NCBI RefSeq assembly: GCF_025152575.1
Contig: NZ_CP102293.1
Span: 806,001 to 870,000 of the forward strand
Length of the DNA: 64,000 nucleotides
Source: Subdoligranulum variabile
GTDB taxonomy: Bacteria > Bacillota > Clostridia > Oscillospirales > Ruminococcaceae
Reading direction: 5' to 3'
Part shown: positions 25,498 through 38,987 of the stretch, piece by piece
Position numbering within the stretch: position 1 is the stretch's first letter
How the letters are laid out: each line of letters begins with the position of its first letter
Notes under the pieces: model-generated
Seen by the model: the letters and a program-made list of their open reading frames with translations, nothing else
Told to the model about the DNA's origin: nothing
The model's database searches: none
Program-made: the position numbers and the translations under genes

Positions 25498-25733
25498 TGC
25501 GTTTTGCACAATTTCTGTTGTCGATTCCTGTTATTTAATAATTTTTTCACATTTATTCATATTTCTTTATTCATATTTCCGACACAGCCGTATAACGATT
25601 TTGTATTTTAGCGTTGTATCGGATATTTATTCCAAAATCCTGCATATTGTTCCGGAATTTTGCATCCGTTTTTTCTGTGCGCATTCCAGAAACGCACACC
25701 ACATAATTCCATTTTCCGGCATGGATTTTCCGC
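25498..25733. other. AT-rich intergenic stretch with no gene
   Basis: About 235 bp of markedly AT-rich sequence lie between the repressor promoter and the 3' end of sigK. I find no supported coding frame, tRNA or hairpin terminator here. It may hold the sigK 3' untranslated region. Confidence 0.5.
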
Positions 25734-26103
25734 TCATTTTCCCCGACGGACGTTTTCACTGCCCCACCGGGCCGAAAGCGCCTGCAGCGCCCGCTTCTCC
25801 AGCCGGGAGATATAGCTCCGGCTGATGCCCATCTGCCCGGCGATTTCCTGCTGGGTGCAGGGCGGCCGACCATCCAGACCGTAGCGTCGGGTCAGCACCT
25901 GCTGCTCCCGCGGCGGCAGCGTTTCCAGCAGCTTGCGCAGCCGTGCCGCATCGGCGCGGCGCTCGCAGTCATCCTCCATCACCGCCGGGTCCGGCAAAGT
26001 GTCCGCCAGTGTCAGCTGCCCCTCGCTGCCCTCCAGCGGCTCCTGCAGGGAGAGTAGCGTCCCCTCCCGCCGGGTGCGCCGCAGCTCCATCCGCAGTTCA
26101 TTT
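25734..26103 (-). CDS. sigK: 3' half of the split sporulation sigma factor gene sigK (SpoIIIC-like part)
   Basis: This part encodes the last 121 residues of pro-sigma-K: the end of region 2/3 (NELRMELRRTRREGTLLSLQEPLEG), a linker, and region 4 with the -35-recognising helix-turn-helix (CTQQEIAGQMGISRSYISRLEKRAL). It has no start of its own that makes sense; an ATG at 26138 is in frame but lies inside the recombinase gene. The missing regions 1-2 are encoded 12.5 kb away at 38592-38939 on the same strand. Joining the two at AAT|GAA gives a single uninterrupted 237-residue protein. Confidence 0.93.
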
Positions 26104-27786
26104 GCTATCCTCTCCCCAAAGCGTCGGTTCCTGCTCATCGTCTGCCTCCTCCGCGCCCCACAGCACCACCCGGGCACGCTGACCGTCCCAGACCACCTTG
26201 CGCACCACCCCGCGGACAGCCGCCCGTTTCTGCTCCACCGTCATGCTGTCCACGCAGTCCCGGAAGGACGCAAGCCGCTGCCGCAGAAGGTCGAACTCCC
26301 TGTCGTTCAAGTTCCGGCGGACCTCCCGGTCTTCCAGCGCTCCGATCCGCTCCTGTAGTTCGGCCTGTCCGGCATGCAGCTCCTCGATACGCTTTTTGAG
26401 ATGGTCCAGGGCCGTACTGTCTCCGAAATCCGCCAGTGAATCCACCAGAGCCCGGATCTTCCGGTCATTTTCCGCCTGCTGCTGCCGCAGCTCCTCCAGC
26501 GGCCGTTCGGATTCGGTCCGGCCGGTATACAGCCCTTTGCTCTTTTCCAGCCGGGAGAGGAACCCGCTTTTCTCCCCTGTCAGTTCCCGGATCTGCGCCA
26601 GGACCGCCCCATCCAGAAGGTTGCCCTCTGCATTTTTGCCGTTGCACAGACGGCGCTTGCTGCGCTCCTTGCTCTTGCAGACGTAGTGGAAGATCCGTTT
26701 GCCCTCTGCCGTTTCCCGCCGGGAGAGCTTTGGGTACATCCGGCTGCCGCAGCGGCACCAGAGCAGACCGGTGAGCAGGGCCTCGTTGCTGCGGGGCTTG
26801 CGGTAGGCGTTGGACTTGTTGCGTTCCAGGGATTCCTGGACGCGGACCCAGGCCTTGCCCGGGATCAGTCCCGGATGCTGCCCCACCGATACGATCCACT
26901 CACAGACAGGCCGGTAGACGGTGGCCCGGCCCTTCTCCTGGTCGGTGCGGTTGTAGGCCAGGATACCCCGGACGCCGTCAAACTCCTCCGGTGCCGAGAA
27001 CAGCTCGGCCTGCTTCTCCAGAAAGTATTGGTAAGCATCCCGGTCTGCAATGAGATAGACCGGGTTCTGCAAAATTCCCCGTATGGAAAACCGGGTGAAG
27101 CTCCGTCCGTTTTTGGTGCGGATCTGCCGGCGCAGCAGTTCAGCCTCGGTCCCGGTGAGGGAGTCCGTCTCGCCGTACAGGTCGTAGATTTCCCGGACGA
27201 CCGCGGCTTCCTCGGGAAGGAGTCTGAGCCGGCAGGCCCGCTTGCTCCTGCCGTCCACCGTGACGGTCCTGACCGCCTCGGAGGTGTACCCGGTAGGGGT
27301 GGTGCCCCCCAGCCAACGCCCGGTCTTGGCCAGCTCGTGCATATTGTCCCGGATGCGCTCGGCGATGGTCTCCCGCTCCAGCTGGCTGAACACCGAGGCA
27401 ATGTACATCATGGCCCGCCCCATGGGACTGGATGTGTCGAAACTCTCCCGGATGGAGATAAAGTCGATGCCCAGCCGCCCCAGTTCCTCGATGAGGGCAG
27501 AAAAGTCGCTGATGTTGCGGCTGATCCGGTCCAGGCGGTAGACCACCACCGCCCGGAACCGGCGTTCCCGGGCGGCCTGCATCATCCGCCGGAAGTCCGG
27601 ACGGTTCAGATTGCCCCCGGAAAAACCCTCGTCCTCAAAGACGACGGCTCGGTCGGCCCAGGCATCTCCGAAGGCGGTGCGGATGTACGCCCTGCACAGC
27701 TCCACCTGGTTGCCGATGCTCTCCCCTTTGCCGGTAAAACGGGACTTCCGGGAGTAGATGGCAATGACATCCTGATTTCTGGGCAT
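26098..27786 (-). CDS. Large serine recombinase of the sigK element (SpoIVCA-like)
   Basis: The 562-residue protein starts at ATG 27786 with AGGAAGG upstream. The resolvase domain spans residues 1-150, with the nucleophilic Ser12 in AIYSRKS and YRLDRISRNISDF. A Recombinase domain follows (about 165-275: GGTTPTGYTSE, RFSIRGILQNPVY). A zinc ribbon comes next (CRCGSRM...YVCKSK...RLCNGK), then a coiled coil (about 400-490). Its TGA stop uses the base next to the recombination core AAATG, so the gene ends exactly at the element boundary. Position and family match SpoIVCA, which excises the skin element from sigK in the mother cell. Confidence 0.95.
   Translation of the reverse strand: MPRNQDVIAIYSRKSRFTGKGESIGNQVELCRAYIRTAFGDAWADRAVVFEDEGFSGGNLNRPDFRRMMQAARERRFRAVVVYRLDRISRNISDFSALIEELGRLGIDFISIRESFDTSSPMGRAMMYIASVFSQLERETIAERIRDNMHELAKTGRWLGGTTPTGYTSEAVRTVTVDGRSKRACRLRLLPEEAAVVREIYDLYGETDSLTGTEAELLRRQIRTKNGRSFTRFSIRGILQNPVYLIADRDAYQYFLEKQAELFSAPEEFDGVRGILAYNRTDQEKGRATVYRPVCEWIVSVGQHPGLIPGKAWVRVQESLERNKSNAYRKPRSNEALLTGLLWCRCGSRMYPKLSRRETAEGKRIFHYVCKSKERSKRRLCNGKNAEGNLLDGAVLAQIRELTGEKSGFLSRLEKSKGLYTGRTESERPLEELRQQQAENDRKIRALVDSLADFGDSTALDHLKKRIEELHAGQAELQERIGALEDREVRRNLNDREFDLLRQRLASFRDCVDSMTVEQKRAAVRGVVRKVVWDGQRARVVLWGAEEADDEQEPTLWGEDSK
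26099..26121 (-). other. Attachment site at the sigK 3'-half side
   Basis: On the minus strand the element end TTGGGGAGAGGATAGC is followed by core AAATG, then sigK sequence AACTGCGG. This is the attP left arm joined to the attB right arm. The core also supplies the recombinase stop codon (AAA TGA). Confidence 0.88.
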
Positions 27787-27812
27787 GGCGGATCGCCTTC
27801 CTTTCCATCCCC

Positions 27813-27860
27813 ATTGTATGAGGCGACAGGTCATAGAAGACAGGCTTTCCGCCATACAAT
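27813..27860. promoter_or_regulatory. Divergent sigma-E-like promoters for the recombinase (-) and the small ORF (+)
   Basis: A perfect CATACAAT occurs once on each strand. On minus it lies at 27820-27813 with GTCTTCTA 13 bp upstream. On plus it lies at 27853-27860 with GTCATAGA (27830-27837) 15 bp upstream. The known sigma-E consensus is close to GTCATATT-N13-15-CATACAAT. The two -35 regions overlap, so the promoters may compete or be jointly controlled. Confidence 0.7.
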
Positions 27861-27892
27861 GCACCAGACGACGGGAATCGGGAGGTGACCGG

Positions 27893-28099
27893 ATGAAAAA
27901 CAGCCCGCCCCTGCAGATGACCGTACAGTTTCCCCAAACCAGGGGCGGCAAGGAGGAACTGGCACAGCGGATTGCGGAACTCCACGCCGATTGCGTGCGC
28001 GCTGCCCTGAACCAGCTGAACTGCCCCGTGAAGCAGAAGCGGGAACTTCTGCAGGCGATAATCGACACGTACCGGAGTTTGCCGGACCCTCGCCCCTGA
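27893..28099 (+). CDS. Small helical protein divergent from the recombinase; candidate recombination directionality factor
   Basis: The 68-residue protein starts at ATG 27893, right after GGGAGGTGACC. The sequence is basic-acidic and mostly helical (KEELAQRIAELHADCVRAAL, then CPVKQKRELLQAIIDTYRSL), with no recognised domain. It stands divergent to the serine recombinase behind a sigma-E-like promoter. In the Clostridioides difficile skin element a small protein (CD1234) controls the direction of recombination. This ORF is in the right kind of place for such a job, but there is no sequence proof. Confidence 0.6.
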   Translation: MKNSPPLQMTVQFPQTRGGKEELAQRIAELHADCVRAALNQLNCPVKQKRELLQAIIDTYRSLPDPRP

Positions 28100-28143
28100 A
28101 TCCGCACCAGTCCCCGGTGAGCAAATGCCCGCCGGGGCTGTTG

Positions 28144-28172
28144 TTGAGGGAACCGGTCGGACATGCTATAAT
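28144..28172 (+). promoter_or_regulatory. Promoter of the TatD-like gene
   Basis: TTGAGG (28144-28149), 17 bp, TATAAT (28167-28172). This is a vegetative-type promoter inside the element. Confidence 0.75.
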
Positions 28173-28200
28173 AGAATCCATCAGAAAGGAGTGATGCCCT

Positions 28201-29136
28201 GTGATCGATACCCACATTCATCTTTCCCATTTCCTGTTTGACGCCCAGTTCCCCTATCTTGCGCTGGACCGCGACGGAAACGGCGTCATCCGGCAGGGGA
28301 CCCGCGAACAGCTGATCGAGGAGCTGCGCGCCGCGGGGATTTCCTGCTGCCTCGATCCCGGCATCGGCATCACCTCCAACGAAAAGCTGCTGGCGCTGGC
28401 GGAGCAGTGGCCGGGTTTTGTGTATGGGGCCGTGGGGGTACATCCCACCCGCACCTGGGAATACAAGACCTTGCTGCAGGGCAAGAAGCACACCGTACGG
28501 CTCCACTGGAACGAACGCCGGAAGCTGGATGAATTCCTGAAGCATCCCGCTGTAGTGGCTGTCGGGGAGACCGGCCTGGACTACCACCACCCCAGGAAAG
28601 AGCAGCACCGGCTGCGGCAGATGGCCTGGTTTCTCTACCAGCTCCGGCTGGCCCACCGGCACAGCCTGCCGCTGATCCTTCACATCCGGGAAGCCGACGC
28701 GGATGCGCTGCGCATCCTGAGGGGATGCCGGCACTGGCTGCACGGCGGGGTATGCCATTGCTTCTGCGGCACGCAGGAAACCGCCGCTGCCTATACCGCG
28801 CTGGGACTGAAGCTGGGCATCGGCGGTTCCCTGCTGATGAACAGCCCCCGAACCCATGGCCTGGAACAGGCCATTGTCTCCACCCCGCTGGAAAGTCTTC
28901 TGCTGGAGACAGACGGTCCCTATGTGCTGCCCTCCTGCCCGCAGCTGGACCAAAAGAAGCGGAGAAAGGTGCGCAACACCAGCCTGATCCTGCCGGCCGT
29001 GGCCGGGCGTATTGCGGAACTGAAGAAGATCCCGGTGGAAGAGGTGCTGCGGGTCACCTCGGAAAATGCCGTCCGCCTCTTCGGTCTGCCGGCACAGACA
29101 GCGGCCCCGGCAGCCCAGGAGCCCTGCAAAGGATGA
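28201..29136 (+). CDS. TatD-family metal-dependent hydrolase
   Basis: The 311-residue protein starts at GTG 28201 with AAAGGAG upstream. It follows the TatD TIM-barrel metallohydrolase plan: the first metal motif is IDTHIHLSHF, GETGLDYHH supplies the glutamate, ILHIREA and GVCHCFCG supply histidines, and LLETDGPYVLPS supplies the last aspartate. TatD proteins act as 3'-5' DNases or RNases in DNA repair or turnover. It is cargo of the sigK element and has its own promoter. A DNA-processing role tied to the element is possible but unproved. Confidence 0.88.
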   Translation: MIDTHIHLSHFLFDAQFPYLALDRDGNGVIRQGTREQLIEELRAAGISCCLDPGIGITSNEKLLALAEQWPGFVYGAVGVHPTRTWEYKTLLQGKKHTVRLHWNERRKLDEFLKHPAVVAVGETGLDYHHPRKEQHRLRQMAWFLYQLRLAHRHSLPLILHIREADADALRILRGCRHWLHGGVCHCFCGTQETAAAYTALGLKLGIGGSLLMNSPRTHGLEQAIVSTPLESLLLETDGPYVLPSCPQLDQKKRRKVRNTSLILPAVAGRIAELKKIPVEEVLRVTSENAVRLFGLPAQTAAPAAQEPCKG

Positions 29137-29171
29137 TGCCCGTACCGATTTTCGCCCTTGCCTGCACAACC

Positions 29172-29206
29172 AAAAAGACCGTGTCCCATCCGGGACACGG
29201 TCTTTT
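29172..29206. terminator. Bidirectional terminator between the TatD gene and the ech operon
   Basis: AAAGACCGTGTCCC-ATCC-GGGACACGGTCTTT is a 14-bp perfect stem with T-tract on plus and the matching A-tract giving a U-tract on minus. It ends both convergent units. Confidence 0.93.
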
Positions 29207-29210
29207 CTTA

Positions 29211-29651
29211 TCAGGTTTCGGGCTTGTCCGCCGGCGCAGCGGGCTTGGCGGCGGCAGCGCCGGCCGGTTTAGCGGCAGGTCTGGGGGTCGGCTTGGGCAG
29301 CGGCGTGGTGCGGGTGTAGGTGTCGCTGTGCCGGGTGGTGTCCGGCGTGGTGTAGCCGGGGACCATCTTCAGGCACTTTTTGGGGCAGACGTTCACACAG
29401 TTGCCGCACTGCACGCAGTCAAACCGCTGGATGGTCCAGGTGCCGGCAGCCCGGTCCACCGTCAGGGCGCCGGGCGGGCAGCTGCGGGCACACATACCGC
29501 AGCTGATACAGGATTCAATGTCGATCTCGATATGTCCGCGCATCCGTTCAGGATACTGGGCCGGCGCAAAGGGATAGCTGGTGGTGACCGGCTTGCTGAA
29601 CAGATTCTTCAGCGCGGTACCCGCAAAGGGCAGGAATTTCAATGATGCCAT
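29211..29651 (-). CDS. echF: Ech hydrogenase subunit EchF (two-[4Fe-4S] ferredoxin-like, NuoI homologue)
   Basis: The 146-residue protein starts at ATG 29651 behind AGAGGTGA. It contains two 4Fe-4S motifs, CISCGMCARSCPPG and CVQCGNCVNVCPKK, between about residues 48 and 95. A proline/alanine/lysine-rich tail of ~45 residues is unusual for the family. It would pass electrons from reduced ferredoxin to the EchC cluster. It is the last gene of the ech operon, 7 bp after echE. Confidence 0.92.
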   Translation of the reverse strand: MASLKFLPFAGTALKNLFSKPVTTSYPFAPAQYPERMRGHIEIDIESCISCGMCARSCPPGALTVDRAAGTWTIQRFDCVQCGNCVNVCPKKCLKMVPGYTTPDTTRHSDTYTRTTPLPKPTPRPAAKPAGAAAAKPAAPADKPET

Positions 29652-29658
29652 CTTGGTT

Positions 29659-30738
29659 TCACCTCTCGGTACAGCTGATGCAGGGGTCAATGGTCAGGAT
29701 CAGCAGCGGCACGTCAGCCAGCTGGCAGCCCTTGAGCATGTTCAGCATGGGCGGGATGTTGCTGGTGGTGGGGGTGCGCAGACGGAACCGTTCGATGAAC
29801 TTGGTGCCGTTGGCCTTCACATAGTAGATGGCCTCGCCCCGGGGCTGTTCGATGCGGGTGAAATACTCCCCCTGGGGGAAGCCCTTCACCGGTACCGCAA
29901 TGGGCCCCGCCGGGATCTTGGCCGCCGCTTGGCGGATGAGGTCAAAGGACTGGTGGATCTCCCGGATACGCACCTCACACCGGGCGTAGGAATCGCCCTC
30001 GGTGGCGGTGACGGGTTCCAGATCCAGTTCGCCGTAGGCCGCATAGCCCAGCTTGCGGGCGTCGTAGGAGACACCGCTGGCCCGCAGCATGGGGCCCACG
30101 GCTCCCATGAGGGTGGCATCCTCGGGGGTCAGCACCCCCAGCCCGTGCAGACGGGAGCCGGTGGTATAGTCCCGCAGGAAGGCGTCGGCGATGGGCTTGA
30201 GTTCCTTCTCCATATCATTGCAGGTGTCCACAATGTTCTTGAGCATGGTTTCGTCCATGTCCTTGAGTACGCCGCCGATGCAGTTCACCGAGAAGATCAC
30301 CCGGCCGCCGGTGGTGGCGTCGAACATGTCCAAGATCTTTTCCCGCAGCTTCCAACTCTCCATGAAGAGGCTCTCAAAGCCCATGGCGTCGGCCAGCAGG
30401 CCCAGCCACAGCAGATGGGAATGAATGCGGCTCATCTCCATCCAGATGGTGCGCAGATACCGGCCCCGGGGCGGCACCTCCACATTCATGATGTGCTCCA
30501 GCGTCTGGCAGTACCCCAGCCCGTGGCCGAAGCTGCAGATGCCGCAGACCCGCTCGGCAATGTAGACGTATTCCTTGAAATCCTTGGTCTCCACCAGTTT
30601 TTCCAGTCCGCGGTGGACAAACCCGATGCTGGGCACCGCTTCCACCACCACTTCGTCCTCCAGAACCAGGTCCAGGTGGATGGGTTCCGGCAGGACGGGA
30701 TGCTGCGGACCAAAGGGCACAATGCTTCGTTTCGCCAT
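29659..30738 (-). CDS. echE: Ech hydrogenase large subunit EchE ([NiFe] catalytic subunit)
   Basis: The 359-residue protein starts at ATG 30738 with AAGGGG upstream. Both nickel-ligand motifs are present: RVCGICSFGH (Cys65, Cys68) near the N-terminus and DPCISCTER (Cys353, Cys356) at the very end. The chain stops three residues after the last cysteine, so there is no C-terminal extension to be cut by a maturation protease, as in other Ech/group 4 enzymes. It oxidises or forms H2 in exchange with ferredoxin. All four cysteines being intact argues for function. Confidence 0.96.
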   Translation of the reverse strand: MAKRSIVPFGPQHPVLPEPIHLDLVLEDEVVVEAVPSIGFVHRGLEKLVETKDFKEYVYIAERVCGICSFGHGLGYCQTLEHIMNVEVPPRGRYLRTIWMEMSRIHSHLLWLGLLADAMGFESLFMESWKLREKILDMFDATTGGRVIFSVNCIGGVLKDMDETMLKNIVDTCNDMEKELKPIADAFLRDYTTGSRLHGLGVLTPEDATLMGAVGPMLRASGVSYDARKLGYAAYGELDLEPVTATEGDSYARCEVRIREIHQSFDLIRQAAAKIPAGPIAVPVKGFPQGEYFTRIEQPRGEAIYYVKANGTKFIERFRLRTPTTSNIPPMLNMLKGCQLADVPLLILTIDPCISCTER

Positions 30739-30742
30739 AGTC

Positions 30743-31090
30743 TTACCCCTTTTCCTTGAACGGCGTGGGCCGCGCAATGCGGTACAGCTTGTCGTGATAG
30801 TCGCCCTGGATGCTCTCGATCTTTACGCCGAACAGCTCTGCGGCCTCGTTTTCCTGCAGGAAAGCGCCGGGATACACCTGGGTGATGCTGGGCACCGTCT
30901 CGTCGGTGCCCAAAGTCAGACGCAGGGTGCGCATATCGTACCCTTTGGCAAAGGAGTAGCTCAGCTCATAGCCGTCGGGCAGACGGACCGCACACAACTG
31001 CACCACCCGCCAGCCGTCCATCTTGAACCGGATCACCTGGGGCATGAATTCCGCCATGGTGATGGGCTCGATCGTGTTGGCAGCTTCCAT
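30743..31090 (-). CDS. echD: Ech hydrogenase subunit EchD (NuoC homologue)
   Basis: The 115-residue soluble protein starts at ATG 31090, preceded by AAGGAGGAAGG. The family feature is the 30-kDa-subunit ending, here VYPGAFLQENEAAELFGVKIESIQGD, close to the E-x-R-E-x-x-D-x-x-G-I region of NuoC. It is a structural subunit bridging EchC and EchE. It sits 2 bp after echC and 4 bp before echE. Confidence 0.88.
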   Translation of the reverse strand: MEAANTIEPITMAEFMPQVIRFKMDGWRVVQLCAVRLPDGYELSYSFAKGYDMRTLRLTLGTDETVPSITQVYPGAFLQENEAAELFGVKIESIQGDYHDKLYRIARPTPFKEKG

Positions 31091-31092
31091 CG

Positions 31093-31551
31093 TCAGCCTT
31101 CCTCCTTTTTCTCTTCTTCTTTTTCCTCGGTGTAGTGGCTGCGCTTGTCCTCCAGGATCTCCAGCGCTTTCACCACACCGTCGATGATGGCCTGGGGCCG
31201 GGCCGCACAGCCCGGCACGTAGACGTCCACCGGGATGACCGTGTCGATGCCGCCCTTGATGTTGTAGCAGTCCTTGAAGACGCCGCCCGTGCAGGCACAG
31301 ATCCCCACGGCCACCACCACTTTTGGGTTGGGCATCTGTTCGTACAGCTGCCGTACCACCCCTTCGCACTGGCTGTTCACACCGCCGGTGATCAGCAGGA
31401 TGTCCGCCTGGAAGGGATCGCCGGTGTTGATGATGCCGAAACGTTCAATGTCGTATTTGGGCGTGGTGCAGGCCAGCACCTCAATATCGCACCCGTTGCA
31501 GCTGCTGGCGTCATAGTGCAGCATCCAAGGGGATTTTGCAAGTTTCTTCAT
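31093..31551 (-). CDS. echC: Ech hydrogenase small subunit EchC (NuoB homologue)
   Basis: The 152-residue protein carries the proximal [4Fe-4S] cluster: CNGCDIE (Cys18, Cys21), GICACTGG and VPGCAARP supply the cysteines. It is the short, NuoB-like small subunit without an export signal, so the enzyme is cytoplasmic-side. A highly acidic/basic tail (KEEEKKEEG) follows. It lies 19 bp after echB. Confidence 0.95.
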   Translation of the reverse strand: MKKLAKSPWMLHYDASSCNGCDIEVLACTTPKYDIERFGIINTGDPFQADILLITGGVNSQCEGVVRQLYEQMPNPKVVVAVGICACTGGVFKDCYNIKGGIDTVIPVDVYVPGCAARPQAIIDGVVKALEILEDKRSHYTEEKEEEKKEEG

Positions 31552-31570
31552 GGTAGTTTCGCCCCCTCAT

Positions 31571-32434
31571 TCAGCGTACCAGCATAAGGATCAGGCCGTT
31601 GAGCCCGCCGGTGAGCAGCGTGACCACCCAGCAGCCATCCAGCAGGGTGCGCCACTTGACGCGGGCGGCCACATTGTCCCACAAAATCTCCAGAAGATAC
31701 ACCACCAGGCAGGCCACAATGGCGATGGGCCAGCTCCACCAGTGTTCGTTGAGGAAAAACAGCGCCACGATGCCCAGCATGAGCACCATCTCGTAATATT
31801 CGGCGATATTCATCACCGCCAGGGTGGGACCGGCCATCTCGGTGGTGATGCCCTTGACCATCTCCTGGTGGGCATGGTGGCTGGTGGACAGATCAAAGGG
31901 CGACTTGCGCAGTTTGATGGCCGTAATGAACATGAAGCCCAGCAGGAAGCCAGGCATGGTCAGCACAGCGCTGTGGGACATCCGGATGATGTCCCCCACA
32001 TGGAAGCTGCCGGTGGCCAGATAGAACCCCACCGCCATGAGCAGGGTCAGAGGTTCGTAGGCCATCATCTGGATCATCTCCCGTCCGGCGCCCAGGGTGG
32101 AGAAAGGCGAGGAATCGCTGGACGCCGCCATGACCAGGAACATATCGGCGGTGGACAGGATGAACAGGCACATGAGAATATCCGCGCCCGCAAACAGCAT
32201 GGAGCCGGCCACCGCCAGGAAGATCAGATAGCTCAGGTTCAGCAGCATCTGCACACTGTTGACGGCGATCATCTGCTTGGAGAACAGCTTCTTCAGGTCA
32301 TAGAAAGGCTGCATCATGGGCGGCCCCTGACGGGCCTGCATCCGGGCGCTGACACGGCGGTCCAACCCGTCCAGCAGGGCGCCCACCAGGGGCGCCAGCA
32401 GCAGATACGCCAAAACCGAAACGACCGGCATCAT
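31571..32434 (-). CDS. echB: Ech hydrogenase membrane subunit EchB (NuoH homologue)
   Basis: The 287-residue integral membrane protein has about eight helices. The NuoH-like cytoplasmic loops QARQGPPMMQPFYDLKKLF and SPFDLSTSHHAHQEMVKG are both present. These loops join the membrane arm to the hydrogenase head. The start overlaps the echA stop as ATGA. A second ATG three bases on (32431) has better spacing to GGAGGTG. Confidence 0.94.
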   Translation of the reverse strand: MMPVVSVLAYLLLAPLVGALLDGLDRRVSARMQARQGPPMMQPFYDLKKLFSKQMIAVNSVQMLLNLSYLIFLAVAGSMLFAGADILMCLFILSTADMFLVMAASSDSSPFSTLGAGREMIQMMAYEPLTLLMAVGFYLATGSFHVGDIIRMSHSAVLTMPGFLLGFMFITAIKLRKSPFDLSTSHHAHQEMVKGITTEMAGPTLAVMNIAEYYEMVLMLGIVALFFLNEHWWSWPIAIVACLVVYLLEILWDNVAARVKWRTLLDGCWVVTLLTGGLNGLILMLVR

Positions 32435-34116
32435 ACCGCACCTCCTATGATCACACAGAGCATGACGATGAGAACCCCCGCCGAGATGATGACGCCCGGC
32501 CGCATGAGGCGGCGGCGCCCGAACTCAAACCGCAGGTACCAGTTGCTCAGATACAGATGTTCCGGTTCCCCGAAACTGTTGACAAAATAGGTGTTGTCGC
32601 CCTCGTTGATGCCGCCCATGTAGATGGGAACGTAGTCCCGGTGGGTGGAGCGTGTGAGCAGGAACATCAGGGACGGCACGAAGAGCACGCTGACCAGCAT
32701 GATGGCCATGGTGGTCAGCACGCTCATGGAAAGCACCTCATGGGCGGTGCCGAAGAGTTCCTGAATGATGGGGGTGACCACCCGGGAGGAAACCAGCGGG
32801 AACAGCAGGCAGAGTCCCAGGGTGGCTGCGGCGTGGATGTACATGGAGAAATACTGGTCCTTGCGGGTCACGTCGGTGACCTTGACCTTGGTGTGGTGCA
32901 GCGAGACCAGCTTGCACAGCCACTTGGTCCAGTACAGCATGGTGGTGGCGCTGCCGTAGGCCAGGAAGATGACCAGCAGGTAGTTGTCTGCGTCCACGAA
33001 GGCCCGCAGGGCCACCCACTTGGAGATCAGCATACCGAAGGGCGCCAGGTACATGCCCGCAATGCCGATGCCCATGATGTAGGTCAGCCGGGGCAGACGC
33101 AGCAGCAGGCCGTGCATGTCCTCAATGTCACGGGAGCCCAGGCTGTTCTCGATGGAGCCCACGGCCTGGAACAGCATGGATTTGCTTACCGAGTGGAAGA
33201 TCATCAGCAGCACCGCCGCCCAGATGGTTTCCTCGGCGCCGATGCCTGCACAGGCCACGATCAGGCCCAGGTTGGACACCGTGGAGAAAGCCAGCACCTT
33301 CTTGCCGTCGTTCTGGGCAATGGCCATCATGCTGGCCGCAATAAAGGTAAAGCCGCCGATGAAAGCCACCGTCATGCCGGTCATGTTGCCCGCCATGGCA
33401 GGGGCCAGCCGGATGAGCAGATAGACGCCTGCCTTGACCATGGTGGCGCTGTGCAGCAGCGCGCTGGAGGGTGTGGGTGCCACCATGGCCCCCAAAAGCC
33501 AGGAGGAGAAAGGCAGCTGAGCCGACTTGGTCAGGCCCGCAAAGGCCAGCAGCACCACCGGAATGGTGGCCTTTGCCGCCACCAGCTCATTGAGCTGCAC
33601 GGTATGCTGGGTGTGGGCCGCCACCACGATGGCAATGGCAAAGCCCAGGCCGCCCAGCAGGTTCATCCACAGGGCACGGAAGCTGTTGTGGACGGCTTCC
33701 TCGGTGCGGGTGTAGCCGATGAGCAGGAAGGAGATGACCGAGGTGATCTCCCAGAAGAAATACATCCAGACGAGATTTTCCGACAGGACCAGCCCAACCA
33801 TGGCCGCCAGGAAGAAGAACAGCATGGAGAAGAAAAATCCGCTGCGGTCCTGATATTCGGTATGGTGCTGGTGATAGGCTTTCATGTAGCCCACGGCGTA
33901 GATGCAGATGAGTCCGCCCACCAGGGCCACGATCATGATCATGAGCATGGACAGGCAGTCCAGCCGCAGATGGGTGGGAGATTCCACCGGGCAGGTCAGT
34001 TCCGACCAGGCCAGCAGCCCCGTCTGCCCCACCGAGAGCAGTACCACCGGATACTTTTTATACTTGATGCTCAGCACCACGATGAGGATCATCAGGGCAA
34101 ATTCCCCGGCCAGCAT
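32431..34116 (-). CDS. echA: Ech hydrogenase proton-translocating membrane subunit EchA (NuoL homologue), probably 5'-truncated
   Basis: From the first usable ATG (34116) the protein has 561 residues and about fourteen helices. Typical antiporter-like features are present: the glutamate in WMYFFWEITSVISFLLIGY, the lysine in FAGLTKSAQLPFSSWL, and HSATMVKAGVYLLIRL. It would pump ions with energy from H2/ferredoxin turnover. There is no ribosome binding site at 34116. The homologous reading frame seems to continue upstream (GEIPVIDHL), and family members usually have roughly 60-90 further N-terminal residues. Within about 50 bp the sequence turns into the 5'-truncated hypF of the opposite strand. 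The 5' end therefore looks lost. Confidence 0.85.
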   Translation of the reverse strand: MLAGEFALMILIVVLSIKYKKYPVVLLSVGQTGLLAWSELTCPVESPTHLRLDCLSMLMIMIVALVGGLICIYAVGYMKAYHQHHTEYQDRSGFFFSMLFFFLAAMVGLVLSENLVWMYFFWEITSVISFLLIGYTRTEEAVHNSFRALWMNLLGGLGFAIAIVVAAHTQHTVQLNELVAAKATIPVVLLAFAGLTKSAQLPFSSWLLGAMVAPTPSSALLHSATMVKAGVYLLIRLAPAMAGNMTGMTVAFIGGFTFIAASMMAIAQNDGKKVLAFSTVSNLGLIVACAGIGAEETIWAAVLLMIFHSVSKSMLFQAVGSIENSLGSRDIEDMHGLLLRLPRLTYIMGIGIAGMYLAPFGMLISKWVALRAFVDADNYLLVIFLAYGSATTMLYWTKWLCKLVSLHHTKVKVTDVTRKDQYFSMYIHAAATLGLCLLFPLVSSRVVTPIIQELFGTAHEVLSMSVLTTMAIMLVSVLFVPSLMFLLTRSTHRDYVPIYMGGINEGDNTYFVNSFGEPEHLYLSNWYLRFEFGRRRLMRPGVIISAGVLIVMLCVIIGGAV

Positions 34117-34119
34117 CAG

Positions 34120-36105
34120 ATGGTCGATGACGGGGATCTCGCCGCACAGGTCCAGGATGCCGCCCCCGACCTGGCCCCCTGCGACGCCTGCCTGCGGGAG
34201 ATGCAGGACCCCCACGGGCGGCGGTATCGCTACCCTTTTATCAACTGCACCGACTGCGGGCCCCGGTTTTCCATCATCCGCCGCCTGCCCTATGACCGCC
34301 CCGCCACCACCATGGCCGGGTTTGCCATGTGCCCCGACTGCGCCGCCGAATACGGTGACATCCGCAGCCGCCGCTACCACGCCCAGCCCAACTGCTGCCC
34401 GGTATGCGGTCCCCGGGCCATCTACCGGGACGCCGCAGGGAAACCCGTGGCGGGCGATCCCATCGCCCTGGCCCAGAAGGCCCTGGCCGCCGGGAAGATC
34501 GTGGCGGTGAAAGGCACCGGCGGCATCCATCTGGCCTGCCGGGCAGACAGTCCCGACGCTGTGGCCCGGCTGCGCCGCCGCAAACACCGGCCGGAAAAGC
34601 CTTTGGCCCTCATGGCCCGGGATCTTTCCACCGCCGCCCGGTTCTGCCGGTATACTGAGGAGGAGGCTGCCCTGCTGCAGAGTCCCCGCCGGCCCATCCT
34701 GCTGCTGGCCAAAAAAGATCCCACCGGGCAGACCTGGCTCAGCGCCACCACCCGGCTGGGGGTCATGCTGCCCTACACGCCGCTGCACATCCTGCTGCTG
34801 GATGGGACTTTCGGCGGACCGGATCTGCTGGTCATGACCAGTGCCAACCGGTCGGGCTGTCCGGTGCTCCTGGACAATGAGGACGCAGTGTCCGCTTTGC
34901 AGGGCATTGCAGACGGGTTTCTGCTCCATGACCGGCCCATCGCCAACCGGTGCGACGATTCCCTGGCCATGGTCTGGCGGGGCGCGCCGGTATTTTTCCG
35001 CCGCAGCCGGGGATATGCTCCCCAGCCCCTCCTGCTGGACCGGGATGTCACGGGGGTATTGGCCTTCGGTGCCGAACAGAAAGGTTCCTTTGCCGCCGGA
35101 CGGGGCCGTCACGCCTTTGTGAGCCAGTACATCGGGGACCTGAAAAATGCCGAGACGCTGGACCACTACTGCACCGCCCTCACCGGCACCCTGTCCCTGT
35201 TCGGGCTGCAGCCCACCGTCCTGGTGTGCGACCTGCACCCGGACTACGCCTCCACCCGGGAGGCGGAAGAGATGGCAGCCCGGCAGCACCTGCCGCTGCG
35301 GCGGGTCCAGCACCACTGGGCCCACATGGCCGCCTGCATGGCGGACAACCGTCTGGAGGGGCCGGTGTTCGGCCTGATCTGGGACGGCACCGGTCTGGGA
35401 GAGGACGGCTCCATCTGGGGCGGCGAGTACCTGGTGGGCGATTATCAGCACTACCACCGGGTGGGATCCCTCCGGCCGGTGGCACTGCCCGGAGGCGACG
35501 CCTGCATCGCCGGGATCGGCCGCACGGCTCTTTCCCTGGCTCTGGATGCCGGTTGTCCCGAGGCGGCGCCTGCCTTTGCCCGCCGGGAGGGCGTAACGGC
35601 GCTGCTGAAAAGCGGCTACCGCTGCGTACAGTCTTCCGGCATGGGGCGGCTTTTCGACGGGGTCTATTCCCTGCTCACCGGGCGTACCGACGCCGATTAC
35701 GACGGCCAGGCCCCCGCCCTGCTGGAAGCCTTGGCTGAAGGCGCTGACCCGGCCGATCTGTATAGTCCCGCTTATTATGAGGAGGACGGGGTGCGCCGTT
35801 TTGATACCCGTCCCCTGATCCGTGCGCTTTGCGCTGCCAAAACCGCCGGGACCGGTGCCGCCGCCCTGGCCGCAGGATTCCAGCAGGCCCTGTGCCGCAT
35901 GGCCTTGGACCAGTGCCGGACGCTGAACCCCGACGGACTGCCGGTGGTGCTTTCGGGGGGCGTATTTCTGAACCGGGCCTTGCTGGAGGGTGTCACCGCC
36001 CTGCTGGAAGGAGCCGGATACCGGGTGTACACCCACAGACGGGTCTCCCCTTCCGACGAAGGGCTGGCCCTGGGACAGCTGGCTATCGGCGCAGCCGGGC
36101 TGTGA
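34120..36105 (+). CDS. hypF: [NiFe] hydrogenase maturation carbamoyltransferase HypF, lacking its N-terminal acylphosphatase domain
   Basis: HypF makes the thiocarbamate used to build the cyanide ligands of the Ni-Fe centre. Recognisable sequence begins at PDLAPCDACLRE (about 34165). It then has both zinc fingers (CDAC...CTDC and CPDC...CPVC), the YrdC-like domain (AVKGTGGIHLACRA, then TSANRSGCPV) and the Kae1-like domain (HHWAHMAACM, DGTGLGEDGSIWGGE). The ~90-residue acylphosphatase domain expected in front is missing. The ATG at 34120 has no ribosome binding site. The gene is probably 5'-truncated at the same junction as echA. It is followed by hypC, hypD and hypE. Confidence 0.88.
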   Translation: MVDDGDLAAQVQDAAPDLAPCDACLREMQDPHGRRYRYPFINCTDCGPRFSIIRRLPYDRPATTMAGFAMCPDCAAEYGDIRSRRYHAQPNCCPVCGPRAIYRDAAGKPVAGDPIALAQKALAAGKIVAVKGTGGIHLACRADSPDAVARLRRRKHRPEKPLALMARDLSTAARFCRYTEEEAALLQSPRRPILLLAKKDPTGQTWLSATTRLGVMLPYTPLHILLLDGTFGGPDLLVMTSANRSGCPVLLDNEDAVSALQGIADGFLLHDRPIANRCDDSLAMVWRGAPVFFRRSRGYAPQPLLLDRDVTGVLAFGAEQKGSFAAGRGRHAFVSQYIGDLKNAETLDHYCTALTGTLSLFGLQPTVLVCDLHPDYASTREAEEMAARQHLPLRRVQHHWAHMAACMADNRLEGPVFGLIWDGTGLGEDGSIWGGEYLVGDYQHYHRVGSLRPVALPGGDACIAGIGRTALSLALDAGCPEAAPAFARREGVTALLKSGYRCVQSSGMGRLFDGVYSLLTGRTDADYDGQAPALLEALAEGADPADLYSPAYYEEDGVRRFDTRPLIRALCAAKTAGTGAAALAAGFQQALCRMALDQCRTLNPDGLPVVLSGGVFLNRALLEGVTALLEGAGYRVYTHRRVSPSDEGLALGQLAIGAAGL

Positions 36106-36134
36106 ACCGTATTTACCATAGGGAGGGTTGCTGC

Positions 36135-36359
36135 ATGTGTCTTGCAGTTCCGTTGAAGATCGTCTCGCTGGAAGGAGACGGAAAACATGCCGTGGGGGAA
36201 GCCGCCGGGTTGACCCAGAAAGTACGGGTGGATTTTCTGCCCGCCATCGCGGTGGGAGACTATGTGATGGTCCACGCGGGGTTTGCCATTGAAAAGCTGA
36301 CCCCCGAACAGGCCGCCGAAAATCTGGCCTGTATCGAGGAGGCCATCCATGCCCTCTGA
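36135..36359 (+). CDS. hypC: Hydrogenase maturation chaperone HypC
   Basis: The 74-residue protein starts at ATG 36135 behind GGGAGGG. It begins MCLAVPLKI with the conserved Cys2 that binds the Fe(CN)2CO unit, and keeps the VGDYVMVHAGFAIEKL OB-fold motif. It works with HypD to deliver iron to EchE. It overlaps hypD by 11 bp. Confidence 0.95.
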   Translation: MCLAVPLKIVSLEGDGKHAVGEAAGLTQKVRVDFLPAIAVGDYVMVHAGFAIEKLTPEQAAENLACIEEAIHAL

Positions 36360-37464
36360 TACCGCCTGGCTCAACGCCTTCCGCCACCCTGCCGGGGCGG
36401 CGGACCTGGTGCAGGACATCCGCCGCCGCATCGAACACCACGCCCCCGTGCGCATCATGGAGATCTGCGGCACCCACACCATGGCCATCGCCAAGGCGGG
36501 GCTGCGCAGTCTGCTGGCCCCCGGGGTGGAACTGATCTCCGGTCCGGGGTGCCCGGTCTGCGTGACCCCCGCCGGGGATATGGATGCCGCCCTGGAACTG
36601 AGTGGGAGGCCGGGCCTCATCGTGGCCACCTACGGAGATCTGCTGCGGGTGCCGGGCAGCGTGCGGGGAGACACCCTGCTGCGCCGCCGGGCCGCCGGAG
36701 CGGATGTACGCACCGTCTACTCCGCCGCCGACGCGGTGGACCTGGCCCGGGCCAACCCCGACCGGGAGGTGGTATTCCTGGGCGTGGGGTTTGAAACCAC
36801 CACCCCCGGCACCGCCGCCTGCGTGCTGGACGCCGCTGAAAGCGGTCTTGCCAATTTTTCAGTGTTTTGTCTGCTGAAGCGCACCGAACCGGCCCTGCGG
36901 GCCCTGCTGAGCGCCCCCGACTGCGGGGTGGACGCCCTGCTGTGCCCCGGCCATGTGGCTGCCGTCACCGGGGTGGACGCCTTCGCCTTCCTGCCCCGGG
37001 AGTACGGCCTGCCCGCCGTGGTCAGCGGCTTCGAGGCCGGGGATGTGCTGTATTCGGTGTGGCGGCTGGTGTGCATGGTCTGCGGCGGCACCCCTGCCCT
37101 GGAGAACGAGTATTCCCGGCTGGTGACCGCCGCAGGCAACACCGCCGCCCGGGCCGCCGCGGAGGCAGTCTTCCTGCCCGCGGACAGTCTGTGGCGGGGC
37201 CTGGGGGAGATCCCCGCCAGCGGCCTGGCACTGCGGCCGGAATATGCCCGCTTTGATGCCGCTGTCCGGTACGGACTGTCCCGTCGCCGGGGCACCGAGC
37301 CCCCGGGCTGCCGCTGCGGTTCGGTCATCCGGGGGGTGCTGCCCCCCGAGCAATGCCCGCTGTTCGGCAAGGTATGCCGCCCCGAGGACCCCGTAGGGCC
37401 CTGCATGGTGTCCAGCGAAGGGGCCTGCGCCGCCGCCTGGAAGTACCGCCCCGCCGACGCCTGA
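36349..37464 (+). CDS. hypD: Hydrogenase maturation factor HypD
   Basis: The 371-residue protein is the scaffold where the Fe(CN)2CO group is assembled. Conserved motifs are EICGTHTMAI, GPGCPVCVTP, GFETTTPGTA, CPGHVAAVTG and the C-terminal cysteine region of the [4Fe-4S] cluster (CRCGSVIRG...CPLFGKVCRPEDPVGPCMVSSEG). Length is normal for the family. Confidence 0.96.
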   Translation: MPSDTAWLNAFRHPAGAADLVQDIRRRIEHHAPVRIMEICGTHTMAIAKAGLRSLLAPGVELISGPGCPVCVTPAGDMDAALELSGRPGLIVATYGDLLRVPGSVRGDTLLRRRAAGADVRTVYSAADAVDLARANPDREVVFLGVGFETTTPGTAACVLDAAESGLANFSVFCLLKRTEPALRALLSAPDCGVDALLCPGHVAAVTGVDAFAFLPREYGLPAVVSGFEAGDVLYSVWRLVCMVCGGTPALENEYSRLVTAAGNTAARAAAEAVFLPADSLWRGLGEIPASGLALRPEYARFDAAVRYGLSRRRGTEPPGCRCGSVIRGVLPPEQCPLFGKVCRPEDPVGPCMVSSEGACAAAWKYRPADA

Positions 37465-37484
37465 ACCGTTAGGAGATGGAAACA

Positions 37485-38486
37485 ATGCAACCGATCATTA
37501 CCATGGATTACGGCAGCGGCGGTCTGCGCACCGCCGAACTTATTGACGAGATCCTGCTGCCTGCTTTCGGCAACGCCGCCCTCAACGATCTGGGCGACGG
37601 GGCCGTGCTGCCCGACCTGGGCGGCCAGCCGGTGTTCTCCACCGACAGTTTTGTGGTCACCCCCTGGAAGTTCCCGGGCGGGGACATCGGCAAACTGGCG
37701 GTGTGCGGCACCGTCAACGACCTGTGCATGGCCGGGGCCAGACCGCTGTATCTCAGTCTTTCCCTGATTCTGGAGGAAGGCCTGCCCACCGACGTGCTGC
37801 GCACGGTGGTGGACTCCATCGCCCGCACCGCCCGGGAGGCCGGTGTGCAGATCGTCACCGGGGACACCAAGGTGGTGGAACGGGGCGGTGCCGACGGGCT
37901 GTACATCAACACGGCGGGCATCGGCGTGCTGCGCGCCCCGGGGCTCGGACGGAAGGCCCTGCAGCCCGGGGACGCGGTGCTGGTCAGCGGCAGCGTGGGC
38001 TGCCACGGCGCCGCCGTCATGATGGCCCGGGGGGAACTGCCCATGGAGGGGAACCTTTCCAGCGACTGCCGTCCCCTCCACGAACTAAGCGCTGCCGCCC
38101 TGGCGGCCGGCGGGGTGCATCTGATGCGGGACCCCACCCGGGGCGGTGTGGCCACCACCCTGAACGAGTTTGTGGAGGACGGATCGCTGTGCATCGATCT
38201 GGAGGAGGACGCCATCCCGGTGGATGTGGCAGTGTCGGCTGCCTGCGATCTGCTGGGACTGGACCCGCTGTACGCAGCCTGCGAAGGCCGGATGCTGGCC
38301 GTGACCGCCTCCGAATCCGCTGACGCCGTGCTGGCGGCCCTCCGTGCCCTGCCCGGCGGGGAAGGCGCCTGCCGCATCGGCACCGTGGGTACCGAACGGC
38401 CCGGCAAGGTGGTGCTGCACACGCCGCTGGGCGGCAGCCGTATTCTGGGCAAACTCACCGGCGCCCAGCTGCCCCGCATCTGCTGA
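37485..38486 (+). CDS. hypE: Hydrogenase maturation dehydratase HypE
   Basis: The 333-residue protein uses ATG 37485, nine bases after AGGAG; an in-frame ATG at 37476 overlaps that site. It is a PurM-like ATP-dependent enzyme that dehydrates the HypF-bound carbamate. The motifs are MDYGSGG at the start, the FSTDSFVVTPWKFPGGDIG ATP region and the essential C-terminal cysteine in PRIC. With HypF, HypC and HypD it completes the iron-ligand pathway. HypA and HypB (nickel insertion) are not in the window. Confidence 0.96.
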   Translation: MQPIITMDYGSGGLRTAELIDEILLPAFGNAALNDLGDGAVLPDLGGQPVFSTDSFVVTPWKFPGGDIGKLAVCGTVNDLCMAGARPLYLSLSLILEEGLPTDVLRTVVDSIARTAREAGVQIVTGDTKVVERGGADGLYINTAGIGVLRAPGLGRKALQPGDAVLVSGSVGCHGAAVMMARGELPMEGNLSSDCRPLHELSAAALAAGGVHLMRDPTRGGVATTLNEFVEDGSLCIDLEEDAIPVDVAVSAACDLLGLDPLYAACEGRMLAVTASESADAVLAALRALPGGEGACRIGTVGTERPGKVVLHTPLGGSRILGKLTGAQLPRIC

Positions 38487-38495
38487 ACCCTTCCT

Positions 38496-38939
38496 TTATA
38501 AGCAAACAACACCCCGCAGGTCCTGCCTGGACCCGCGGGGTGTTGTGGTTTCGGGGTGATCGCTTCTGAAAAGTGTTGGGGTGAGGATAGCATTTTCAAT
38601 GCAGCGGCTGGCATAGCTGGAGAACTTGCTGGCACGCACCGGGTCAAAGGTATCCACCGCCTTGATGAGGCCGATGGTCCCGATGGAGATCAGATCGTCC
38701 TGGGAGGCGGTGGCGGCAAAGTATTTTTTTGTCACATGCGCTACCAGCCGCAGATTGTGGCGGATCAGCAGGTCCCGCGCTTCGGCCGCCCCGGCGCCCC
38801 CTGCGCGCAGTGCGGCAAACGCCTCCCTTTCCCGGGCGGGAGAGAGAGGCCGCGGAAAGGAACCGCTCTCCAGATGCAGCATCAGATACAGTACATGGCC
38901 GGCCGCCGCCTGCAGGAACAAACCCAGAATTTCCAACAT
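38496..38939 (-). CDS. sigK: 5' half of the split sporulation sigma factor gene sigK (SpoIVCB-like part)
   Basis: Codons 1-116 (38939-38592) encode a pro-sequence and regions 1.2-2. MLEILGLFLQAAAGHVLYLM resembles the membrane-associated pro-sequence of pro-sigma-K. FPRPLSPARERE, LIRHNLRLVAHVTKKY, DDLISIGTIGLIKAVDTFDP and SSYASRCIEN are core sigma motifs. After CIEN the frame enters the element and stops at 38496 with about 31 unrelated residues. Residue for residue, CIEN joined to NELRME-type sequence at 26099 restores the family sequence. The sigma factor acts late in the mother cell. Confidence 0.94.
   Translation of the reverse strand: MLEILGLFLQAAAGHVLYLMLHLESGSFPRPLSPAREREAFAALRAGGAGAAEARDLLIRHNLRLVAHVTKKYFAATASQDDLISIGTIGLIKAVDTFDPVRASKFSSYASRCIENAILTPTLFRSDHPETTTPRGSRQDLRGVVCL
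38506..38546. terminator. Strong stem-loop after hypE, next to the element end
   Basis: Arms 38506-38523 and 38529-38546 pair over 18 positions with one mismatch (ACAACACCCCGC and GGTCC blocks). The T-tract on plus is weak (TGTGGTTT). It should end the hyp operon and would also stop transcription leaving the sigK 5' half. Confidence 0.75.
38576..38599 (-). other. Attachment site at the sigK 5'-half side
   Basis: On the minus strand sigK sequence TTG is followed by A, core AAATG and the element arm CTATCCTCACCCCAA. This is the attB left arm joined to the attP right arm. The plus-strand element end reads TTGGGGTGAGGATAG, almost the same as the inverted arm at the other junction. Confidence 0.88.
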
Positions 38940-38958
38940 ACTACCCACCCCCTGGCTC

Positions 38959-38987
38959 ACTTTATGCCGGAATCGGGGCGAAAATAC
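38959..38987 (-). promoter_or_regulatory. Putative sigma-E-type promoter of sigK
   Basis: On the minus strand GTATTTT (38987-38981), 14 bp, CATAAAGT (38966-38959), about 20 bp before the sigK ATG. It fits the CATA-containing -10 boxes of mother-cell sigma factors only partly. No vegetative TATAAT-like box is nearby. Confidence 0.5.

Follow-up and report, generated by a model that had tools for sequence, protein, structure and literature searches.

How can SigmaK be made when its gene, sigK, lies in two pieces? The question arises in the genome of Subdoligranulum variabile (NCBI RefSeq assembly GCF_025152575.1), where we analysed a stretch of 64,000 nucleotides (contig NZ_CP102293.1, positions 806,001 to 870,000; hereafter the window, numbered from its first letter). 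Here sigK is interrupted by an element of 12,492 bp, which is very probably of the skin (sigK-intervening) type and would be excised in the mother cell to rebuild the gene. We favor this reading because it agrees with the anatomy of the element (its architecture, precise ends and recombinase), with two intact gene halves, with empty sites in relatives, with the failure to find any other sigK and with the presence of several sporulation genes. The split, its ends, the empty sites and a conserved module of recombinase, partner protein and attachment (att) sites are directly observed.

The two halves of sigK (Table 1) occur in the order and orientation that an initial annotation had assigned to them from the letters and open reading frames of this DNA. 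Translation confirms the 5' half, 116 residues (MLEILGLFLQ...SRCIEN) with an open end. The 3' half (NELRMELRR...) is also present and in its assigned place, but its codon frame begins at 26102 and not at 26099 as first given. Joining the halves at their common AAATG produces 714 nucleotides, the proposed frame of 237 codons plus a stop. As in known skin elements, the halves of an interrupted sigK are co-oriented and joinable in frame at a short common core, and the gene for a large serine recombinase lies at one end of the element. The stop codon of this gene, TGA (26100-26098), falls on the attachment core. When circularised, the element ends read GGGGAGAGGATAGCAA/ATGCTATCCTCACCCC and form a dyad in which 14 of 16 pairs are complementary. 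Of 20,000 joins made at random from element DNA around AAATG, none reached 14 (mean 7.0, maximum 13).

Relatives with an uninterrupted gene, which the initial annotation had proposed to look for, are common. The sigK search covered 34 congeners and was tallied by hand, and a single match spans the site in 27 of them. In one congener (G026, assembled as one contig, with an uninterrupted SigK), window positions 25501-26103 and 38591-38967 align to positions 10826-11400 and 11396-11772 of locus L079. These flanks overlap by exactly the 5 bp of the core, in agreement with the proposed ends of a roughly 12.5-kb element. The halves of the split gene are 92% (5') and 94% (3') identical to this uninterrupted sigK. 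Elsewhere in the genus, the halves lie 29 kb apart on one contig (Gemmiger formicilis An812, G014), on two contigs (G005), or, for a 3' half, adjoining a recombinase fragment at a contig end (G015), and four congeners (G009, G013, G021 and G032, several of these genomes being incomplete) lack a sigK-grade match. One stop lies inside the match in seven of the 27 read-through cases, five of which have frames finishing near the natural C-terminus (224-234 residues). In loci L018 (G016) and L034 (G003) the stop comes directly after GISRSYV/FGISRSYV, leaving SigK about 20 residues short. Another congener (G001) has an intact sigK plus a lone second 3' half on a different contig (L044, G001:C863:7880-8245); this 12.5-kb contig has no recombinase match and may be a mixed assembly or a relic.

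The split gene appears to be the only one available. A search of its own genome, a single contig of 3,244,954 bp, returned, besides the two halves, a pair of more distant sigma factors (45-47% identity) and no other full-length sigK. The initial annotation had named relatives with another full-length copy and decay of both halves as grounds against its reading; in the genome itself no other such copy was found, and the split sigK is under purifying selection. Relative to the G026 gene, nonsynonymous divergence (dN) is 0.046 and synonymous divergence (dS) is 0.44, with a pairwise dN/dS of about 0.1 in both halves, and dN to five outgroups is lower for the split gene than for the uninterrupted genes of G026 and G034 in all five comparisons. 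Most of this divergence may predate the insertion, so the values argue against strong relaxation, not against very recent loss. Spo0A, SpoIIID and SpoIVA are present in the genome, and across the genus SpoIIID occurs in 35 of 35 genomes and SpoIVA in 34. A BofA search matched 34 of 35 genomes, but its control had no match in Bacillus subtilis and the result was not used.

The initial annotation had described an independent element of the skin type. The type stands, as the architecture, ends, recombinase and empty sites fit; the element is, however, a member of a large family that the annotation had not seen, whose members share the recombinase, the attachment site and a small partner protein. 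An alignment of the recombinase was used to scan genome_contigs, a collection of 84,980 species with one genome per species, and the best 80 of 450 relatives were kept. A sigK 3' half lies within 500 nucleotides downstream of the recombinase in 72 of these 80, and in 14 the two genes overlap or nearly touch, as here. Among the eight exceptions, two loci end shortly after the recombinase (L082, L142), two have the 3' half 1.4 and 4.5 kb further on (L099, L106), three have no 3' half in view (L134, L152, L157), and one has an inverted sigK 5' half after the recombinase (L122), which could be an oppositely arranged element or an inversion. The att arms could be read in 60 (attR) and 14 (attL) of the 80 loci: the attR arm GAGGATAGCA before AATG is exact at 46 of 60 sites and has at most one mismatch at 59, and the attL arm CTATCCTC is exact at 7 of 14 and within one mismatch at 12.

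Hosts of the family include Oscillospiraceae, Acutalibacteraceae, Lachnospiraceae, Christensenellaceae, Erysipelotrichaceae (Holdemania, Traorella) and one strain of Faecalibacterium longum, a member of a genus not known to form spores, in which the recombinase stands directly before a sigK 3' half (L088). In a recombinase tree, which left out L123 (a stop in the translated match), the window sequence groups with that of G. formicilis An812 and other Oscillospiraceae and Acutalibacteraceae (9 rows, support 99/90), and G. formicilis ATCC 27749 falls in a part distant from An812. Such elements therefore entered the genus two or more times, or were exchanged. Phage and plasmid origins of the recombinase were considered and rejected; the best listed matches were at 38% (Terrisporobacter phage TPELB_ph1) and 45% (Ruminococcus albus), respectively. 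Compared with 70 IMG/VR loci, it is 60% and 65% identical to two and at most 40% identical to the other 68.

A frame of 68 codons, divergent from the recombinase gene, encodes the small partner, which is likely a recombination directionality factor (RDF). We infer this role from synteny, co-occurrence with the recombinase, the upstream motif CATANNNT and analogy with CD1234 of Clostridioides difficile. Where a sigK 5' half is in view upstream of the recombinase in the same orientation (15 of the 80 loci), the candidate is present every time; it was also found in 13 of the remaining 65, which offer at most 10 kb of upstream DNA. An independent sample of 117 genomes across the order had it in 11, one match containing an internal stop, and the recombinase occurred in all 10 RDF-positive genomes besides that of S. 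variabile versus none of 10 chosen RDF-negative ones. On contig G106:C1, a candidate match with one internal stop (206229) and a recombinase (270787) are 64 kb apart, hinting at a very large sigK element. The 24 relatives that were aligned have 63-84 residues; 7 of 31 rows were dropped from the alignment (A2) and from the promoter count, either with a match start outside the open frame (L083, L094, L137) or as close copies (L087, L097, L103, L151). Its profile matches 520 database proteins, of which the 120 listed are named only "hypothetical protein". No family in Pfam, NCBIfam or PHROGs scored above cut-off, and nothing in the PDB rose above noise.

Promoter signals are consistent with developmental control of the candidate RDF. 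CATANNNT, which we take to be a SigmaE-type -10 pattern, occurs at most 130 nucleotides upstream of the invariant proline codon of the RDF in 15 of 24 relatives (300 shuffles: mean 3.7, maximum 9), and it lies 26-27 nucleotides before the sigK start in all eight Gemmiger upstream regions examined. The recombinase of the window has CATACAAT 34 nucleotides upstream, opposite the copy of this octamer that belongs to the small gene, and lacks a good SigmaA-like site (the best has five mismatches). Upstream regions of relatives were counted for 67 of 81 rows (match from residue 1, enough DNA), and 43 of these carry SigmaA-like promoters, against a shuffle mean of 17.3.

Table 1. Features of the sigK element and its flanks, in window coordinates
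Feature	Position	Strand	Details
sigK 3' half incl. stop codon	25734..26102	-	122 codons; stop at 25736-25734
Large serine recombinase	26098..27786	-	562 residues; resolvase PF00239, recombinase PF07508, Zn-ribbon PF13408; PHROG integrase 6.8e-109
attR core AAATG	26099..26103	-	overlaps recombinase stop codon
Divergent promoter region	27813..27860		CATACAAT (SigmaE-like -10) at 27853-27860 (+) for RDF and 27820-27813 (-) for recombinase; GACAGG boxes between
Candidate RDF	27893..28099	+	68 residues; unannotated; conserved family A2
TatD-family hydrolase/nuclease	28201..29136	+	PF01026 1.2e-58
Ech-type hydrogenase genes echF,E,D,C,B,A	29211..34173	-	echA without 5' end
Deletion junction	34163..34173		relatives hold about 1.65 kb more
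hypF without N-terminal acylphosphatase domain	34168..36105	+	TIGR00143 positions 97-739 of 741; no PF00708, unlike G008
hypC, hypD, hypE maturation genes	36135..38486	+	PF01455, PF01924, PF00586/PF02769
attL core AAATG	38591..38595	-	
sigK 5' half	38592..38939	-	116 codons, putative pro-sequence and region 2; Sigma70_r2 5.8e-15 at G000:844583-844768 (G000, this genome)
SigmaE-like -10 of sigK, CATAAAGT	38959..38966	-	

A close published precedent is skinCd of C. difficile, with the recombinase CD1231 and the RDF CD1234, a protein of 72 residues that is controlled by SigmaE and SpoIIID and needed for excision, according to the passages cited (PMC5025042). As described there, skinCd likewise has its large serine recombinase gene directly upstream of the sigK 3' half and a small RDF, and the SigmaA-type promoter of CD1231 resembles those predicted for 43 of 67 relatives here (PMC5025042). 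Our proteins are likened to CD1231 and CD1234 by this description. The recombinase of the window differs from CD1231 in having a SigmaE-like box instead. C. difficile SigmaK has no pro-sequence, whereas a pro-sequence-like N-terminal extension is recognizable by eye here. The skin element of B. subtilis also splits sigK, and its core AATGA is contained in the AAATGA of our attR and attB, but in the cited account it is 48 kb long and phage-like, with its recombinase (SpoIVCA) beside the 5' half and in the opposite direction (PMC10745906). Here, 12.5 kb separate the halves, no phage structural genes were found among the proteins scanned and the recombinase gene is next to the half with the 3' end. 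Island IV in sigK of B. cereus biovar anthracis and gin in gerE of B. cereus ATCC10987 are, by description, similarly excised during development and similarly loaded with non-phage cargo, although they occupy other sites or another gene and carry restriction-modification or other genes, with no hydrogenase in the accounts cited (PMC10745906, PMC5595907). In all, the cited passages describe sigK elements from B. subtilis, the B. cereus group, C. difficile, C. tetani, a C. perfringens phage and Alicyclobacillus (PMC5025042, PMC10745906, PMC13141910). Among the open-licence PubMed Central papers listed by our searches, none dealt with sigK elements in Gemmiger or with a sigK element that contains a hydrogenase.

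The cargo, echFEDCBA and hypFCDE, fills the element from 29.2 to 38.5 kb and encodes a group 4 (Ech/MBH-type) nickel-iron (NiFe) hydrogenase with the CxxC motifs RVCGICS and DPCISC and NuoH- and NuoL-like membrane subunits. The closest solved chains to the large subunit are 6cfw (membrane-bound hydrogenase) and 7z0s (formate hydrogenlyase), and its sole match in the genome is the element copy. Between echA and hypF, relatives retain about 1.65 kb that holds the start of echA, hypA, hypB and the HypF acylphosphatase domain (domains confirmed in G008); the deletion in the window spans a short microhomology and may be an assembly error at this point. The HypABCDEF set of the island is thus incomplete, lacking hypA and hypB and having an N-truncated HypF. 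No other HypA scored above cut-off in the genome, and HypB was not searched for elsewhere in it. Given the loss of hypA, hypB and two gene starts, and with no other HypA above cut-off, the hydrogenase is probably inactive. The deletion and the HypA result also weaken the idea, which we considered and set aside, of a functional hydrogenase shed by the mother cell. In heterocyst-forming cyanobacteria, programmed excision is connected with hydrogenase through the hupL element; that element interrupts a hydrogenase gene, whereas here the hydrogenase is cargo.

The same island occurs in G014, G008, G009 and G030 at 80-90% DNA identity over long stretches, on contigs without sigK halves. SigK of G014 is distant (dN 0.29, versus 0.02-0.09 for the island genes tested) and no HypD match was obtained in the seven congeners whose sigK is most similar, together indicating that the island was acquired horizontally. 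G009 (93% complete, 3% contaminated) carries the ech/hyp island twice, each time on a different contig (L072, L073). The sigK element of G014, at the same site, is 28.9 kb long, encodes a recombinase 79% identical to that of the window and carries glycosyltransferases and other glycan-synthesis genes (of eight proteins scanned, six had a family), showing that the cargo of sigK elements varies within the genus. By eye, this An812 element (L039-L040, G014:C13) also contains IstA/IstB-like transposition genes.

We propose that during sporulation the 562-residue serine recombinase, with the 68-residue protein as directionality factor, would act in the mother cell to recombine attL with attR at AAATG; a circle of 12,492 bp would be released and the 237-codon sigK restored. 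The directionality factor is probably turned on by SigmaE together with SpoIIID, and through the shared divergent promoter SigmaE perhaps drives the recombinase too, which would be unusual for the family. Excision would thereby be limited to the mother cell, and the chromosome of the forespore would retain the element. The Ech-type island was acquired horizontally and has since lost hypA, hypB and two gene starts.

Several observations weigh against this proposal. Nine of the 24 RDF genes have no CATANNNT upstream, and not all of the 15 occurrences lie at a typical distance for a -10 element. SigmaE-like boxes precede the recombinase in 15 of 67 relatives, which is not beyond chance (shuffles gave a mean of 6.8 and a maximum of 16); we therefore suggest a shared divergent SigmaE promoter only for this element, to which, if real, it would be peculiar. 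The recombinase was detected at E <= 1e-80 in only 3 of 35 genomes of the genus, and the SigK frames of G016 and G003 end early, at 211-212 residues, though sigK is uninterrupted there. Gemmiger and Subdoligranulum have been described as non-spore-forming. Excision, its timing and its restriction to the mother cell are steps that we infer from gene arrangement and conservation.

The best surviving alternative, to which we give a minor share of credence, is an ordinary genomic island or mobilizable element that uses sigK as its site, excises for transfer and reconstitutes sigK incidentally, a view compatible with developmental excision. The wide separation of the G. formicilis strains An812 and ATCC 27749 in the recombinase tree and the difference in cargo, hydrogenase here and glycan-synthesis genes in G014, speak for such an island. 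We identified, however, no conjugation or phage structural genes among the scanned proteins of the element: of ten proteins scanned against PHROGs (echD, echC and hypC were left out), only the integrase matched a PHROG of clear phage role, other PHROG matches being weak or to families of unknown function or metabolism. The SigmaE-like box upstream of the small protein also fits developmental excision.

Somewhat less probable again is a fossil: an element inserted in sigK of a lineage that no longer sporulates, never excised, with sigK heading to decay. The description of the genus, the damaged hydrogenase cargo, the four congeners without a sigK-grade match (several incomplete) and the two early-ending SigK frames would suit it. 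Yet the sigK halves, recombinase, small protein and att dyad are all intact, the amino acid sequence of the split sigK has changed no faster than that of intact orthologues, and SpoIIID and SpoIVA persist across the genus at the frequencies given above. An assembly artefact or chance frame match is scarcely credible: nothing was found in its favor, and three things speak against it, namely the single contig without N in the window, other genomes in which sigK is split at this position beside a related recombinase, and the empty site with its exact 5-bp overlap.

Mother-cell excision of a skin-type element is thus the preferred reading, and in its anatomy the element belongs to a known kind with a known mechanism. 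Non-phage cargo in elements of sporulation genes has likewise been published, as far as the cited passages go (PMC5595907, PMC10745906), and the island adds a further non-prophage skin element. What the analysis adds to the initial annotation is the element family, the candidate RDF and the hydrogenase island with its internal deletion. Programmed DNA excision at sigK is found in textbooks but has been studied in detail in few organisms, and the same logic appears here in dozens of gut genomes. Congeners that have or lack an element at the identical site offer natural experiments to tell a regulatory role of skin elements from mere tolerance of them, and the small protein offers a concrete, testable RDF family that is also a potentially useful tool. 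On balance, we lean towards the view that gut Clostridia harbor many related cargo islands that are specific to sigK, move horizontally and have one conserved module in common (serine recombinase, previously unnamed small RDF under SigmaE-type control and a fixed dyad site). In these islands metabolic genes, such as hydrogenases or glycan-synthesis clusters, would be kept in the vegetative and germ line and discarded in every mother cell, and SigmaK of the lineage would have come to depend on them.

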